Shown: in pieces, positions 18,736 to 53,361 of the stretch
Layout: every line of letters begins with the position of its first letter
Numbering within the stretch: position 1 is the stretch's first letter
Origin: Prevotella melaninogenica
GTDB lineage: Bacteria > Bacteroidota > Bacteroidia > Bacteroidales > Bacteroidaceae
Assembly: GCF_018127925.1 (NCBI RefSeq)
Contig: NZ_CP072347.1
Span: forward strand, 808,501-872,500
Reading direction: 5' to 3'
DNA: 64,000 nt
The notes under the pieces: model-generated
Told to the model about the DNA's origin: nothing
Seen by the model: only the letters and a program-made list of their open reading frames with translations
Databases searched by the model: none
Made by a program: the position numbers and the translations under genes

Positions 18736-20340
18736 ATGAATAAGTTTATGAAGAGAACGACTATTGGTTCAGTAATGCGAGGCATGTGTTACGGCTTCGC
18801 AGCTTTGTTGTTTGCTGCCAGCTGTGCGAACGATGACGTTGCACAGGATGAAAAGCAGAAGAAAGATAACATCCCAGCAAGTACAACCGTATTTACAGGT
18901 ACTTCCCTACCAGATGCAACAACACGTACAGCCATCCTTAACCATACAAAGGGCACAGGTGCTTCCGTAAATTGGAGTAGCACGGACAAGATATGGGTAA
19001 AGGACGATGGAGGAACTTGGCAACAGAGTGGAACCGTAACAATTCCTTCTGCTGCAAATAAGGCGGAAGGAATGTTTGCTCTGTCAGGTACTTATACGGG
19101 TGCTACACACGACGTCCTTTATACAAACAAGTCTGTTTCAGGAACGCAACCACAAGTAGAGATTAAGAAAGAACAAACACAGTCTACCCCAAATAACTTC
19201 GACCATGCAGGTGAATCGGGCGATTTTGGTATCGCTACAGGTAACAAGGCAGGCAGTTATTACAAATTCTCTCTTAATCACAAGGCTGCTTATCTCTGTT
19301 TTATCCCTCGCTCAAGTAATCCTTATGTTAATCGCAGTAAGTTGATTAAGGTTGAGATTATGAGTGACGACGATATTGCCGGTACTTACAACATAGCAGC
19401 CAATGGAGCCCTCACCCTCGCTTCGGGTGGTTCAAAGACGATCACAGTAACAACTGGTTCGGGCTTTGATATAGACAACCCTGCTGATGATATGAGCAAG
19501 AATGCTACCTATGCTGTCATCGCCCCAGGCACACATAAATTCCGTATTCGTTACTGGCTTCGTAATACGACAGATAATCCTTATGGACCGATAGAGGGAA
19601 CTGTATCAAAGATCGTTACCCTTAATTGTACAGCAGGTTCAATTCATGATATAACAGCGAATCTCGATCCGCATGATTACGATGGCGACCATTACTCTAT
19701 GTGGGATGCCCAGCAGCAATATTGGTATGGTTACGAATGGACAAAGCACTTATCAGGAAACACTGGTCAGCCAACAGTCGGTGGCGGTAGCGGCTCATCA
19801 AACTACGCCCAGAGCAATACTGACCCACGTTACTACAACGAAGCATTTACTTCTGGCGTAAATAACCCCGCTACTCACGCACCATGTAAGGACCTCCCTA
19901 ATGCAAACGAGATGTCTTGGTATGTAGTGTACGGCGATCCACGTTGGGACGATGACGAATTATGGACTACTATGGGTCATTTATATGAAGGCGGCGTGTG
20001 GTTTAAGAAGAAGTCTATATTGCAAGCGGAAAATCATTACGACACCGAGAAATCTGCTGACGGTACAACCGACATGCGTACAACATTCAAGAGCTACAGC
20101 AACAACACCTCCAGTCTTCCTTCCGCTGCCGATGCAGGTAACTACTTTTACTTGCCCGCCCTGGGTTACTACATATCTGGTTATCTGTACAACGTTGGCC
20201 TCCGCGGCTACTATTGGTCGTCAAGTGCTCTCCCATCGGACGGCGGCAGCAACGCGTACTACCTGTTCTTCGTCAGTGGTTACGTCAACGTGGGCAACAG
20301 CAACCGCAACTACGGGTACAGAGTCGGCGGGATTGAGTAG
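18736..20340 (+). CDS. fimbrillin-like lipoprotein with variable C-type-lectin-like C-terminus, cassette 1
   Basis: A 534-residue lipoprotein. The lipobox LLFAASC places the lipidated cysteine at residue 30, followed by ANDD. The body (about 45-320) has features of fimbrillin/Mfa-like proteins: TTRTAI, VNWSSTDKIWVKDDG and beta-rich repeats with DHAGESGDFGIA. After YSMWDAQQQYW the sequence diverges from the cassette 2 paralogue, although NEMSWY, GDPRWD, LWTTMGHLYEGG and YFYLPALG are kept. The last ~60 residues contain YYWSSSA, NAYYL, SGYVNVGNSNRNYGYRVGGIE, a pattern seen in C-type-lectin-fold variable domains. N-terminal regions of the two copies are over 90% identical at DNA level by eye. I infer a surface adhesin or pilus-tip-type ligand binder; the ligand is unknown. 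Confidence 0.8.
   Translation: MNKFMKRTTIGSVMRGMCYGFAALLFAASCANDDVAQDEKQKKDNIPASTTVFTGTSLPDATTRTAILNHTKGTGASVNWSSTDKIWVKDDGGTWQQSGTVTIPSAANKAEGMFALSGTYTGATHDVLYTNKSVSGTQPQVEIKKEQTQSTPNNFDHAGESGDFGIATGNKAGSYYKFSLNHKAAYLCFIPRSSNPYVNRSKLIKVEIMSDDDIAGTYNIAANGALTLASGGSKTITVTTGSGFDIDNPADDMSKNATYAVIAPGTHKFRIRYWLRNTTDNPYGPIEGTVSKIVTLNCTAGSIHDITANLDPHDYDGDHYSMWDAQQQYWYGYEWTKHLSGNTGQPTVGGGSGSSNYAQSNTDPRYYNEAFTSGVNNPATHAPCKDLPNANEMSWYVVYGDPRWDDDELWTTMGHLYEGGVWFKKKSILQAENHYDTEKSADGTTDMRTTFKSYSNNTSSLPSAADAGNYFYLPALGYYISGYLYNVGLRGYYWSSSALPSDGGSNAYYLFFVSGYVNVGNSNRNYGYRVGGIE
20161..20340 (+). other. candidate variable region of a diversity-generating retroelement, cassette 1
   Basis: Aligned with 31019-31200, this segment differs mainly at NNC codons (for example CGC/AGC, TTC/GAC, TAC/GTC, GGC/GAC) while blocks such as TATTGGTCGTCAAGTGCT and AACCGCAAC are unchanged. 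Twelve of 15 ungapped non-synonymous differences have C in the third position in both copies. An 8-bp stem with a 4-base loop follows at 20361-20380. Confidence 0.6.
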
Positions 20341-20360: not shown

Positions 20361-20380
20361 CCCTCCCCAAAAGGGGAGGG
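20361..20380 (+). terminator. GC-rich hairpin after the cassette 1 lipoprotein gene
   Basis: CCCTCCCC-AAAA-GGGGAGGG, a perfect 8-bp stem 21 bp after the stop. Similar hairpins end the HU-like genes at 30247-30267 and 53340-53361, so a terminator or mRNA-end role is the simplest reading. Confidence 0.5.
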
Positions 20381-20687: not shown

Positions 20688-21119
20688 ATGAAGATTAAAC
20701 TCCAAAAGAAAAAGAATCCGCAGAAGCGGACAGAAGAAAAGTATTATGCTAATCCTGTAAATCTTGGTAAGAAAACCTTGCGGGATATTGCGCGCGACAT
20801 TGCGGGGCGTTCTTCGCTGACACGTGGCGATATCGAAAACGTGCTGGCGAACTTTATGGATTGTCTGCCTCATTATCTCCGCGATGGCTTTAGCGTGCAG
20901 TTGGGCGAGTTTGGCACGATGCGCTTAACACTGTCAAGCGAGGGGGCCGCAACGGAAAAGGCGTTTAAGACAGAGACTATCAAGCCGCGCGTAACGTTTA
21001 CACCGGGCGTAGAACTGAAAGCTGCGCTGCGCGAAAACTCGTATGAGACGGTGAAGGAGGAAAAGTCGGGCGGAAAGGAAGAAGGGGGCGGAAAGACTCC
21101 CGGACCTTTGCCAGGGTAG
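20688..21119 (+). CDS. HU-family DNA-binding protein, cassette 1
   Basis: A 143-residue HU/IHF-like protein of the Bacteroidetes type with extended ends. A basic N-terminus (KIKLQKKKNPQKRTEEKYYANPVNLGKKTL) precedes the helical dimerisation part (RDIARDIAGRSSLTRGDIENVLANFMDCLPHYLRDG). Then come the beta-arm entry SVQLGEFGTMRLTLSSEG and the RVTFTPGVELKAALRE end of the fold. A low-complexity tail KEEKSGGKEEGGGKTPGPLPG follows. The same Lys/Glu then GGG..P..G tail occurs in the other two cassette HU proteins although their folds differ in sequence. Such proteins bend or compact DNA; the palindromic array just upstream is a possible but unproven binding site. Confidence 0.82.
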   Translation: MKIKLQKKKNPQKRTEEKYYANPVNLGKKTLRDIARDIAGRSSLTRGDIENVLANFMDCLPHYLRDGFSVQLGEFGTMRLTLSSEGAATEKAFKTETIKPRVTFTPGVELKAALRENSYETVKEEKSGGKEEGGGKTPGPLPG

Positions 21120-30140: not shown

Positions 30141-30276
30141 ATGTTTAGTAACCTCCTTATGATTTGAAAAATCAAGGAGTAAACTACTCATCGGGGATTC
30201 TGTTATTTACTCCGTCTCTTTTGGAGAGGCTTTTAGGAATTAAGTTCCCTCCCCTACTGGGGTGGGGGGCTAGGCG

Positions 30277-30728
30277 TTATCCCACCTCTGGTCTTCCGCC
30301 TCCCTCTTGCTTCTTTTTTTCTTTCTCCTTTTCTTCCTTCCACTCCTCCCAGTGAATAGAATCAGAAACCAATGAACGGGTAGCAACCTTGTTGCTCTGT
30401 GTGCGCGAAGTCTCGGAATGAAACGGACACGGACATTCTTTATCTGCTTTGCCGTTACTTCTTCCGGCTTCGCGATTCCCTTGTCGGCATTGATGGTGTA
30501 GTAAAACGTACCTACGCCTTCCAACTTCACCGTGCGACCCTCGGCCATAAAAGCAGCCATAACGACACCTAAGTCTTTCAACACCGCATACGTGTCACCA
30601 CGACTCACGGTCGAAATCAATGCCAATCGATCAGCCACTTGGTCGGTTGTTACGGGCTTCCCCACGACTACTACCTGTGGATACCACAAACCTGTAATTT
30701 TCTTCTTCACTTTCTTAAAAAAAGCCAT
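30277..30728 (-). CDS. HU-family DNA-binding protein, cassette 2, probable frameshift
   Basis: The first ~103 residues, MAFFKKVKKKITGLWYPQVV through NVRVRFIP, form a normal Bacteroidetes HU-like domain with SRGDTYAVLKDLG and LEGVGTFYYTI. After FIP the open frame continues as an unlikely RLRAHRATRLLPVHW and ends at 30270. The frame shifted by one base instead reads ETSRTQSNKVATRSL and finishes with KEEKEKEKKKQEGGGRPEVG and a stop at 30277. That is the same kind of Lys/Glu-GGG-P-G tail as in the two other cassette HU proteins. A single missing base at 30412-30416 (CCGAG for CCGGAG on the minus strand) explains this. It is either a sequencing error or a real lesion in the tail; the DNA-binding core is intact. 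Coordinates follow the repaired frame. Confidence 0.72.
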
Positions 30729-31018: not shown

Positions 31019-31200
31019 CTACTCGAACCCGTCGACCCTATTCCCGACGTTGCGGTTGGTGTTTTCCACGTAGACGTAACCACTGAAGATGTCCAGGCAG
31101 TACGCGCTGTAGCTGTTCCCCGGGTAAGCACTTGACGACCAATAGCTGCCGCTGAGGGCAACGTTGTACAGCTGACCAGTGGTGTTGTAGTGACCCAAGG
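31019..31200 (-). other. candidate variable region of a diversity-generating retroelement, cassette 2
   Basis: Partner of 20161-20340. Differences sit in NNC codons while the flanking codons are frozen. A hairpin (GCCCTTTTA..TAAAAGGCG) follows directly after the stop at about 30978-31008. No template repeat or reverse transcriptase gene is present in the window. Confidence 0.6.
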
Positions 31201-51019: not shown

Positions 51020-52663
51020 ATGGACAAGAAAAGTATTTATTTTGGTACACTCGTGTTGGCAGCACTCACCCTAGGCAGTTGCGCCAACGACGATACAGCC
51101 ACAGACAAAACAGCAGGTAAGGATACGCCAAAGACAGGAACCGTATTCTCATCAGAAACAGAGCCTTCAACTCGCACATCTGCCACTTACACAGGCAGCG
51201 GTCTCGATTTTTATTGGACAGCAAGCGATAAGATTTGGGTAAAGGATGACAACGGGAACTACAATCAGAGTGCCTCTGACGATATCAGCAGTCGCATCGC
51301 TGCCGTACCTGGCAGCACAACTACCGACAAGGCGAAATTCTGGGTAAATGGAAGCTATACAGGTTCCACACACAAGGTACGTTATACAGGTAAGAACGGC
51401 ACAAAGGACAAAGTAACCATCAAGGCTTCGCAAACCCAAAGCACTCCTAACGATGCTGCCCACATAGCAGAGGATGGAGACTTCGGTGTAGCTGATGCAA
51501 CGGGCAGTGGTTCGTATAACTTTACACTGAATCACAAGGCAGCGTATGTTACTTTCATGCCTTATACTACACAAAGTGTCATTACGACTGCTGCTAAACT
51601 TCAAAAGATTCGCATTTACACAAGCAACACTTCTGACCAACTTGCAGGCACATTCGATCTAGCAGATAATGGTACACTAAGCAATGGTGCAACCACATCA
51701 AACAGTGTAGAGCTGAATGTAAACAACTTTTCTATTCCTAGTGTTTCTACTTATGCAACTAATGCTGCAACGATGGTTGTTAATCCTGGTACATATAGTA
51801 ATCTGACAATAGAATACACTTTACACGATGCTGTAACCAATGTTACGGGAGTGATAACGAAAACATATCCTTCTGTAACTCTTGATGCTGGTAAGAATAC
51901 GCCAGTAAGGGCAGACTTAAAAGTTAAGATATACCCTGCTAATGACTATTACATGTGGGATGCACAGCAGCATTACTGGGCAGGATATGAATGGGATGGT
52001 GCTAATCCAAAGCAGCCTACATTAGATGGACAACAAAATAGTACTGATGCACCACAAAGCACATATAGTGCTTCAGCACATACTCCGCGTGATTATAACG
52101 ATATTATGGGTCTTTCTTCGTTGGGAATACTACAAGATCCAAGTTACTCTGCAGTAGGAACTTTTAATATCAATGAAATGATTTGGTATGCAGAGAAAGG
52201 CGATCCACATTGGGACGGCAACACACTTTGGGCTACGATGGGACATCTTCGTATAGGAGGTTTATGGATTAAAAAGCAAAGTGTAATTGCTTCCGAAAAT
52301 AGCAAAACTGTTCTGCAGTTAAAAGACAAAGATCCTTTTGGATATGATAATAGAGGAGACTTAACATCTACGCCATCCGCAACGATGAAAGGTTCGGGTA
52401 GTTTTACTGTTAATAGTATAGCACAAGGGATACCAACGAATATTAATAATTATTTTTATCTTCCTGCTTTAGGTCAGAATTCATTCGGAAAATTATACAT
52501 TGATAAAGCGGGCTACTATTGGGGAAGTACTCCTAGTACAGGGAATAATGCTTCTGCAGGATTTAGCTTTTCCGATCATAATATATTTATAGCATGGTTT
52601 GCGAGAAATGCAGGAGGAAAGCTCTTTAAATCTTCCAATGAAGATGAATACCGCCCATTCTAA
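51020..52663 (+). CDS. fimbrillin-like lipoprotein, cassette 3 (no variable-region signature)
   Basis: A 547-residue lipoprotein with lipobox LTLGSC (Cys21) followed by ANDD as in the paralogues. The body shows fimbrillin-like features (STRTSATYTGSGLDFYWTASDKIWVKDD, AEDGDFGVADATGSGSYNFTLNHKAAYVTFMP). The C-terminal domain begins at YYMWDAQQHYWAGYEWDG and keeps NEMIWY, GDPHWDGNTLWATMGHLRIGG and NNYFYLPALGQ, as in cassettes 1 and 2. The end KAGYYWGSTPS...FKSSNEDEYRPF lacks the NNC-codon pattern and is AT-rich. This copy may be an invariant relative, or have lost the diversified end. It is likely surface-exposed with unknown ligand. Confidence 0.78.
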   Translation: MDKKSIYFGTLVLAALTLGSCANDDTATDKTAGKDTPKTGTVFSSETEPSTRTSATYTGSGLDFYWTASDKIWVKDDNGNYNQSASDDISSRIAAVPGSTTTDKAKFWVNGSYTGSTHKVRYTGKNGTKDKVTIKASQTQSTPNDAAHIAEDGDFGVADATGSGSYNFTLNHKAAYVTFMPYTTQSVITTAAKLQKIRIYTSNTSDQLAGTFDLADNGTLSNGATTSNSVELNVNNFSIPSVSTYATNAATMVVNPGTYSNLTIEYTLHDAVTNVTGVITKTYPSVTLDAGKNTPVRADLKVKIYPANDYYMWDAQQHYWAGYEWDGANPKQPTLDGQQNSTDAPQSTYSASAHTPRDYNDIMGLSSLGILQDPSYSAVGTFNINEMIWYAEKGDPHWDGNTLWATMGHLRIGGLWIKKQSVIASENSKTVLQLKDKDPFGYDNRGDLTSTPSATMKGSGSFTVNSIAQGIPTNINNYFYLPALGQNSFGKLYIDKAGYYWGSTPSTGNNASAGFSFSDHNIFIAWFARNAGGKLFKSSNEDEYRPF

Positions 52664-52867: not shown

Positions 52868-53323
52868 ATGATTTCATTTAAAGTAGTTGAGACCGTCCAC
52901 AGGATTGGTCCAAAGAAAGGTCAGAAAGCCTTTAATGCCGTGCCAAAAGCGCCGATGAAGTTTTCATCTGATTGGCTTGTTAACCGTATTGTTCGCGAAA
53001 CCTCGTTGAGTGAGGGAGACGTAAGAAACGTGATTATCACCCTGCGTAATATTACTATTGAGGTGATTAGCCTTGGCGGTTCACTAGACCTTGGCGACCT
53101 CTTCTCGTTCCGTACCACGATACCTTCAAAGATGGTCGACAACGAGAAAGATGTCACCGCCGAATCCTTGAAACGTCCCCGTGTCCTTGTTCGCTGGAAG
53201 TCTGCCGTCACAGAAGCGTTGAAGAAGATTGAAGTGGATGTGGATAATCCTGCGAGGAGGAAGACTAAAGAGGGAAAGGAAGAAAAGAAAAAGAAAGAAG
53301 GTGGAGGACCAGAGGCGGGATAA
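52868..53323 (+). CDS. HU-family DNA-binding protein, cassette 3
   Basis: A 151-residue Bacteroidetes HU-like protein. After an N-terminal strand (ISFKVVETVHRIGPKKGQKAFNAVPKAPMKF) comes the helical half SSDWLVNRIVRETSLSEGDVRNVIITLRNITIEVISLGG, then SLDLGDLFSFRTTIPSKM and KRPRVLVRWKSAVTEALKKI. The tail ARRKTKEGKEEKKKKEGGGPEAG repeats the charged-then-GGG-P-G theme of the other cassette HU proteins. Sequence identity to HU-like 1 and 2 is low, so these three are old paralogues or independent recruits. A -7 box was not found in the 204-bp spacer, so it may be read from the lipoprotein promoter. An SSU hairpin CCCCTCTCC-AAGA-GGAGAGGGG at 53340-53361 follows. Confidence 0.8.
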   Translation: MISFKVVETVHRIGPKKGQKAFNAVPKAPMKFSSDWLVNRIVRETSLSEGDVRNVIITLRNITIEVISLGGSLDLGDLFSFRTTIPSKMVDNEKDVTAESLKRPRVLVRWKSAVTEALKKIEVDVDNPARRKTKEGKEEKKKKEGGGPEAG

Positions 53324-53339: not shown

Positions 53340-53361
53340 CCCCTCTCCAAGAGGAGAGGGG
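53340..53361 (+). terminator. GC-rich hairpin after HU-like gene 3
   Basis: A perfect 9-bp stem CCCCTCTCC / GGAGAGGGG with a 4-base loop. There is no clear T run, so termination is uncertain. Confidence 0.5.

Follow-up and report, generated by a model that had tools for sequence, protein, structure and literature searches.

Studies of diversity-generating retroelements (DGRs) have described several arrangements against which the present locus can be read. In the part of the work on Bordetella phage BPP-1 that concerns the DGR target, a stem-loop lies just 3′ of the initiation of mutagenic homology (IMH), and its deletion severely impairs repair (PMC12875486). For Thiohalocapsa PB-PSB1, the passages on individual elements describe the targets of DGR 4 and DGR 5 as diversified in trans by another DGR, and DGR 7 as diversified in a reference genome without a matching template, rare long-read variants having kept reverse transcriptase (RT) and template (PMC10907252). 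DGR fragments of Nanoarchaeota are described as showing signs of activity at sites without an RT, for which the authors propose fossils or remote diversification (PMC4372165), and many variable regions (VRs) per template are on record (PMC6642488). Here we analyse a 64,000-nucleotide stretch of the Prevotella melaninogenica genome (NZ_CP072347.1, positions 808,501 to 872,500; "the window"), which holds two lipoprotein-like genes, genes 1 and 2, with variable 3′ ends (coordinates in Table 1). We consider it likely that these ends are VRs of the kind written by a DGR, that they belong to a dispersed repertoire of 39 genes written in trans, and that the writer is non-resident or was recently lost.

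The genome containing the window (G000, "own" in what follows; two contigs, 3.36 Mb, 99.96% complete) was searched with the variable end and the pattern of fixed blocks. This gave 38 genes and then one more: 39 full-length members of about 520 to 560 codons, dispersed across both contigs. The original prediction, drawn from genes 1 and 2, had described frozen blocks between variable codons ending in C, and both features are present, with C at the third codon position (C3) in 95% of 22 hypervariable (HV) codons of gene 1 and equally in 95% of 22 in gene 2. The same prediction had counted 12 of 15 ungapped non-synonymous differences as NNC in both copies; in a codon alignment of the last 62 codons this excess holds, with 16 of 23 non-synonymous pairs NNC in both genes versus 10 of 90 upstream (Fisher p = 5.6e-8). 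Its reservation that only two copies can be compared no longer applies, given the 39 own copies and those from seven further genomes. Among the related genomes drawn on are P. vespertina (G003), P. veroralis (G026), Hoylesella enoeca (G248), P. jejuni (G289), G005, G162 and G186, the last of which we take to be P. melaninogenica ATCC 25845.

Each species in this comparison is represented by one genome. Rows were taken from 20 of 44 matching stretches in H. enoeca (14 retained after a motif filter), 10 of 15 in P. jejuni (9 retained), 8 of 11 in P. vespertina, 3 of 9 in P. veroralis, 2 of 9 in G162 and 3 of 3 in G186, with single rows from G005, P. denticola and Prevotella sp. BV3P1; one P. micans row, a false match, was excluded from the codon analysis. 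The 44 stretches of H. enoeca match the C-terminal part of the family, several copies there having a different end, and this genome has no DGR RT at E 1e-20. One of its members (L168, 6340-6570) carries a frameshift right before an otherwise NNC-rich variable end.

Across the 39 own copies, entropy at positions 1 and 2 of the 22 HV codons ranges from 1.36 to 1.97 of 2 bits, and each HV column has C3 in 24 to 37 copies; the intervening codons are mostly near-fixed and form a shared backbone. Where C3 reaches at least 90%, in 16 own copies, 337 of 351 HV codons end in C, compared with 162.1 expected from the upstream codon use of the same genes for the same amino acids. At the first position of these HV codons A makes up.37, T.31, G.23 and C.10, and at the second A makes up.55, G.27, T.10 and C.08, frequencies to be expected if AAC is the unmutated state. 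That some A-containing codons do not vary, a caveat already attached to the original prediction, is borne out by a near-invariant TAC tyrosine column (C-ending in 33 of 39 copies; its first position has an entropy of 0 bits, its second 0.17), and we read such codons as structurally constrained residues.

Synonymous sites behave differently from the protein. Computed in blocks over 27 high-C3 copies from several species, synonymous identity is 0.47 to 0.73 over most of the gene and 0.82 to 0.84 in the last two blocks; inside the VR it reaches 0.9 to 1.0 at many codons, a few Ser, Pro and Ala columns lying at 0.5 to 0.7. Protein variability peaks where the DNA is otherwise most conserved. Moreover, C3 retention and backbone synonymous identity fall jointly (Spearman 0.80, 39 copies), which suggests that the copies differ in age since they were last written, and the family may be readable as a time series of writing events. 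At its well-preserved end stand own copies L012 and L005 and P. veroralis L147, in which the third positions of the 22 HV codons and the 20 backbone codons are all unchanged.

RTs with the motif GLPIGxLTSQ, which marks DGR RTs, occur in at least 4 of 60 congeneric genomes, and a DGR-RT profile has matches at E 1e-20 in 27 of 249. In G005, a single contig carries a complete DGR cassette (L142) made up of a homologous target gene, a bAvd-like gene, a template and an RT; the bAvd-like gene scores below both cut-offs (Pfam bAvd, E 1.3e-9, 39 bits with a cut-off of 40; NCBIfam DivGenRetAVD, E 1.3e-10). Of the 24 differences between the G005 template and its VR (210 sites compared), 22 fall on template adenines; so do 18 of 20 in the P. 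vespertina DGR and 25 of 27 in that of P. jejuni. Each of these three true template-VR pairs thus has 2 mismatches at non-adenine (non-A) sites. The latter two elements (L143 in P. vespertina, L308 in P. jejuni) are related DGRs, 77 to 81% identical in DNA, with a different template and a different target family.

Because the G005 template stems from another genome, it allows a non-circular look at the own copies. Mean entropy across the 39, sorted by G005-template base, is 1.50 bits at A, 0.88 at C, 0.67 at G and 0.43 at T. The same preference is seen in six cross-species pairs, in which differences at template adenines versus other sites number 19/54 versus 11/129, 28/54 versus 5/129, 28/54 versus 13/129, 26/54 versus 15/129, 35/54 versus 20/129 and 31/54 versus 5/129 (p < 1e-4 in all six). 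The variation is adenine-biased and C3-preserving. The adenine check that the original prediction had proposed is hence answered in two halves by an independent template: differences do concentrate on adenines, but not exclusively, since 5 to 20 of the 129 non-A sites also differ between pairs. That reverse transcription is the agent of this variation we infer from homology to the complete DGR in G005.

Orthologues in P. jejuni place the variation in time. Between own L026 and P. jejuni L289, 35 of 460 upstream residues and 17 of 22 HV residues differ; between own L008 and P. jejuni L288 the counts are 28 of 471 and 19 of 22, and 0 of 20 backbone residues are changed in either pair. Both pairs are 92 to 94% identical upstream and have only 5 and 3, respectively, of the 22 HV codons in common. 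HV differences in three own/P. jejuni pairs fall on codon positions 1 and 2 rather than 3 (13 and 9 versus 2 in L026/L289; 14 and 15 versus 2, and 12 and 16 versus 0, in the others). DNA past the gene aligns too in L026/L289 (with interruptions), L008/L288 and L020/L300. The orthologues diverged at these codons after the species split. Since they share few HV codons, at about the level of unrelated copies (mean 2.8 per pair among the 39 own copies, 3.3 to 3.5 among high-C3 copies), while their backbones are near-identical, writing seems to have gone on after that split. An NNC-poor control pair (P. jejuni L297 and P. melaninogenica L302) keeps 15 of 22 HV codons at positions 1 and 2.

From the consensus backbone of the own copies, with AAC at the HV codons, we assembled an inferred template of 101 non-A and 52 A sites. 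With up to 6 non-A mismatches allowed, it fits 11 of the 39 own copies; beyond the copies it was built from, it fits 4 of 9 rows in P. jejuni, 1 of 2 in G162, 1 of 8 in P. vespertina and 1 of 3 in P. veroralis. These seven VRs from four other species carry 1 to 6 non-A mismatches and 20 to 28 A-site mismatches each, the best fits, in P. jejuni and P. veroralis, having a single non-A mismatch. None of the 14 H. enoeca rows (best, 11 non-A mismatches) or 3 G186 rows (best, 7) fits. VRs that fit one template in several species where that template was not found imply either that each genome lost its writer recently or that the writer is mobile and usually absent.

In the mechanism we favour, reverse transcription of a template RNA carrying AAC at about 22 codons would introduce errors at adenines, and the altered copy would then take the place of the 3′ end in each target gene, acting in trans and leaving the backbone intact while the first two positions of the variable codons become random. 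The writer (RT, Avd and template) would have been lost recently or would reside on a visiting element absent from the assembly, and copies long unwritten would decay by ordinary synonymous drift. As a tentative extension, a single itinerant DGR writer with one conserved template might repeatedly enter Prevotella of this group, rewrite large chromosomal repertoires of surface-protein ends in trans and then leave or be lost, so that the targets, not the retroelement, are inherited.

A number of results weigh against a DGR as the source of these ends, above all the searches for the writer. No DGR-type RT was found in the own genome: an RVT_1 search returned three RTs, a retron-like RT and a Drt3a/Drt3b pair, none with GLPIGxLTSQ, and the best match of the DGR-RT profile (E 1.9e-5) falls at the Drt3a gene. 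Neither did profile searches of this genome find Avd, matches of E 0.01 and 0.13 not being followed. No template was found there with the inferred template (E up to 10; 43 candidates, 40 scored), and all 33 matches with E < 0.01 fall within the 39 VR genes. A 26-base pattern, searched with one mismatch allowed and blind to any template without AAC at the two codons it includes, did not find the template in 398 congeneric genomes, P. jejuni lying outside that search; it matched five places in 3 of the 398, each with one mismatch and all at already known VR genes. Other genome template searches scored only 8 and 3 candidates per genome, P. jejuni (G289) again lying outside them. The template was likewise not found in IMG/VR (exact short patterns), PLSDB plasmids or INPHARED phages with the probes used. 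With RT, Avd and template not found in the own genome, the DGR has to be deduced from its product alone. The templates that do exist in relatives match poorly: over alignments of at least 110 bases, that of G005 never comes closer to an own copy than 25 non-A mismatches, which excludes it as writer of the own family, and P. vespertina and P. jejuni have a DGR-type RT whose adjoining templates have at least 36 and at least 35 non-A mismatches to own copies (at least 110 bases). Further points concern the copies themselves. Over all 39, about 75% of HV codons end in C (644/856), a share below that of the commonest base at most backbone third positions; a mix of older and newer writing would be a candidate explanation. 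In a second control pair poor in NNC, only 7 of 22 HV codons are kept, so that unwritten members also diverge there. Finally, a strong inverted repeat follows only 13 of the 26 own copies with a C3 fraction of at least 0.7, and gene 2 is without one.

Three candidates from these searches deserve a description of their own. The best Avd-profile match in the own genome (E 5.8e-8) is a protein that we take to be of four-helix type, flanked by presumed succinate dehydrogenase-like subunit genes, and was rejected as Avd. Drt3a and Drt3b lie in tandem (L065, 1301-4398, contig G000:C1) and are a known anti-phage pair (PADLOC). The retron-like RT (L001, 970-2295, contig G000:C2) has a hydrophobic C-terminal stretch and lies about 11 kb from a VR gene.

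The original prediction had called the two ends trans-acting targets of a DGR elsewhere. Its target half stands, as the ends look like DGR VRs, with variation mainly on G005-template adenines and orthologues diverging most there; its other half finds no DGR-type RT, Avd or template in the own genome. A resident DGR fails by the prediction's own rule, which was to abandon the idea if a complete genome had no RT or template. That the ends work like a DGR target is well supported; that the family is a DGR fails on three defining features, RT, Avd and template, in this genome.

How recently, and from where, the ends were written separates two of the alternatives. An ancestral resident DGR could have diversified the family once and then been lost, leaving variation that is old and static. 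The decay series among copies agrees with this, as do the searches for DGR-type RTs, which found none in the own genome, none in P. veroralis, G162 and G186 (no profile match at E 0.1) and only weak matches in H. enoeca (E 3.1e-5). We nevertheless regard such a fossil repertoire as unlikely, since own and P. jejuni orthologues share so few HV codons despite their upstream identity and near-identical backbones, and since the best-preserved copies, L012, L005 and L147, are unchanged at the HV third positions and backbone. A writer that is in the cell but outside the assembly (its plasmid, phage or integrative element having been lost in culture or omitted), or in other strains, is a form of the explanation we prefer and, taken in this specific sense, a possibility of some weight without being the expected outcome. 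It would explain why one inferred template fits VRs of several species yet was not found in the genomes searched (own, G003, G026, G162), and separate recent loss in each species is less simple than a mobile writer; against it, PLSDB, INPHARED and IMG/VR gave no match with the probes used, the comparison has one genome per species, and no second template was sought in P. jejuni, a species with a DGR RT.

Explanations that do without a DGR fare worse. Diversifying selection is to be expected on surface-exposed binding loops, and ordinary mutation together with a strong preference for C-ending codons might then mimic writing. This we hold to be highly improbable, given that upstream C use for these amino acids is only about half of that seen in the VR, that VR synonymous sites are more conserved than those upstream, and that three own/P. 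jejuni pairs change HV positions 1 and 2 without matching change at the third. Equally hard to credit is a shuffling of variable ends by gene conversion or recombination among the 39 copies, as in silent-cassette antigenic variation. Many dispersed homologous copies with a homogenised backbone would provide the substrate, and two statistics are marginal (most shared codons, 10 versus 8.5 expected, p 0.095; mean run in the 16 high-C3 own copies, p 0.076), but shared HV runs of at least 4 codons show no clear excess over column shuffles of the 39 copies (3 pairs versus 3.0 expected), and there is no sign of block exchange. Very unlikely, though a little less so, is template-directed adenine mutagenesis by a different writer, be it the resident retron-like or Drt3a/b RT or a factor linked to HU-HIG, a family of DNA-binding proteins. 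A HU-HIG-type gene indeed lies near 38 of the 39 own copies. However, an RVT_1 search at E 0.001 finds nothing in P. veroralis, which still has a well-preserved copy with 22 of 22 HV codons C-ending; no template was found in the own genome; and a search at E 1e-4 found no HU-type gene beside the best-preserved copy in H. enoeca or beside either of the 2 copies examined in G162. As some well-preserved copies lack it, the HU-HIG gene seems dispensable for writing.

The features of the window are collected in Table 1.

Table 1. Features of the window that bear on the variable gene ends (window positions)
Feature	Position	Strand	Basis
Lipoprotein-like gene 1, 534 aa, HV C-terminal end	18736..20340	+	Open reading frame and translation
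VR of gene 1, HV NNC codons alternating with fixed backbone codons	20167..20319	+	Codon alignment
Perfect inverted repeat, 8-base arms and 4-base loop, 20 nt past gene 1 stop	20361..20380	.	Sequence
HU-HIG family DNA-binding protein, neighbour of gene 1	20688..21119	+	Pfam PF18291, E 4.1e-26
HU-HIG family DNA-binding protein, neighbour of gene 2	30270..30728	-	Pfam PF18291, E 4.8e-17
Lipoprotein-like gene 2, 525 aa	31019..32596	-	Open reading frame and translation
VR of gene 2	31040..31192	-	Codon alignment
Diverged further family member, similar C-terminal end	51020..52663	+	Translation and codons
HU-HIG protein beside diverged member	52868..53323	+	Pfam PF18291, E 1.3e-13

VR boundaries in gene 1 were set from the rise in between-copy synonymous identity (after LPALG). 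The diverged member, whose end codons mostly have T, A or G at the third position, stands outside the 39, and DGR writing leaves no apparent sign in its sequence. Each of the three HU-HIG genes in the window comes after its lipoprotein-like neighbour. In other genomes, a HU-HIG-type gene lies within 1200 bases downstream in 20 of 43 rows (one of them the false row), 40 of the 43 having at least 900 bases of downstream sequence. As to the inverted repeat, a strong one follows 4 of the 13 own copies with lower C3 and, among 38 ends of other genes in the window, 4; the difference is clear between high-C3 copies and these control ends (p = 0.001) and not between high- and low-C3 copies (p = 0.32). 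It often begins about 20 nt past the stop codon, and similar elements lie 3′ of many VR genes in several species. The repeat of gene 1 is GC-rich, as is one at 53341-53360, past the stop of the HU-HIG gene ending at 53323; both lie some 16 to 20 nt after the stop codon, and with one of them behind a HU-HIG gene the element may be a general dispersed repeat or a terminator.

On the question of a C-type-lectin-like fold, AlphaFold models of the last 153 residues have a mean pLDDT of 85.5 in the best case and 53.5 to 67.3 in the other four, with no significant fold match. Pfam-type matches, all below cut-off, are to Lcl_C (presumably the former DUF1566) in 7 of 20 members and to Fib_succ_major in 1 of 20. 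Judging from its relatives and the look of the N-terminus, the product is likely an adhesin-like protein of the cell surface, lipid-anchored and with a binding tip that varies.

If our reading is correct, DGR surveys that start from the RT miss whole diversified repertoires, since targets can outnumber and outlive their writer. The predicted template provides something to seek in metagenomes, the graded copies might allow the time since the last rewriting to be read, and the repertoire bears on surface variation in these host-associated bacteria. A literature search limited to open-licence papers, and thus weak, found no report of writer-less DGR target families in Prevotella.

Set beside the BPP-1 system, a case of mutagenic retrohoming, as presented in the sections on its target, the family is alike in adenine-restricted variation on a kept VR backbone, and in many copies an inverted repeat lies just 3′; that of gene 1 is comparable in position to the phage stem-loop 3′ of the IMH. 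BPP-1 differs in having its own RT, Avd and template, none of which was found here for 39 dispersed targets (PMC12875486). Bacteroidales DGR targets, a fimbrial-type lipoprotein and a type V pilus tip, share with our genes the surface lipoprotein and its variable C-terminal domain, but the accounts concerned start from DGRs with an RT (PMC4159848, PMC12632263), whereas here a large repertoire has none. The G005 cassette is nearer, with a homologous target protein and the nearest real template found, albeit one that is at least 25 non-A mismatches away from own copies. From what is described for Thiohalocapsa PB-PSB1, few loci in one population are involved (PMC10907252), as opposed to a 39-gene family with one inferred template fitting several species; and the Nanoarchaeota, as portrayed, retain multiple DGRs (PMC4372165), where the own genome yielded none. 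As far as these sources describe them, known cases come close in parts: PMC10907252 for targets served in trans and for a diversified target whose reference genome lacks the template, PMC4372165 for fragments without an RT, and PMC6642488 for many VRs sharing a template.
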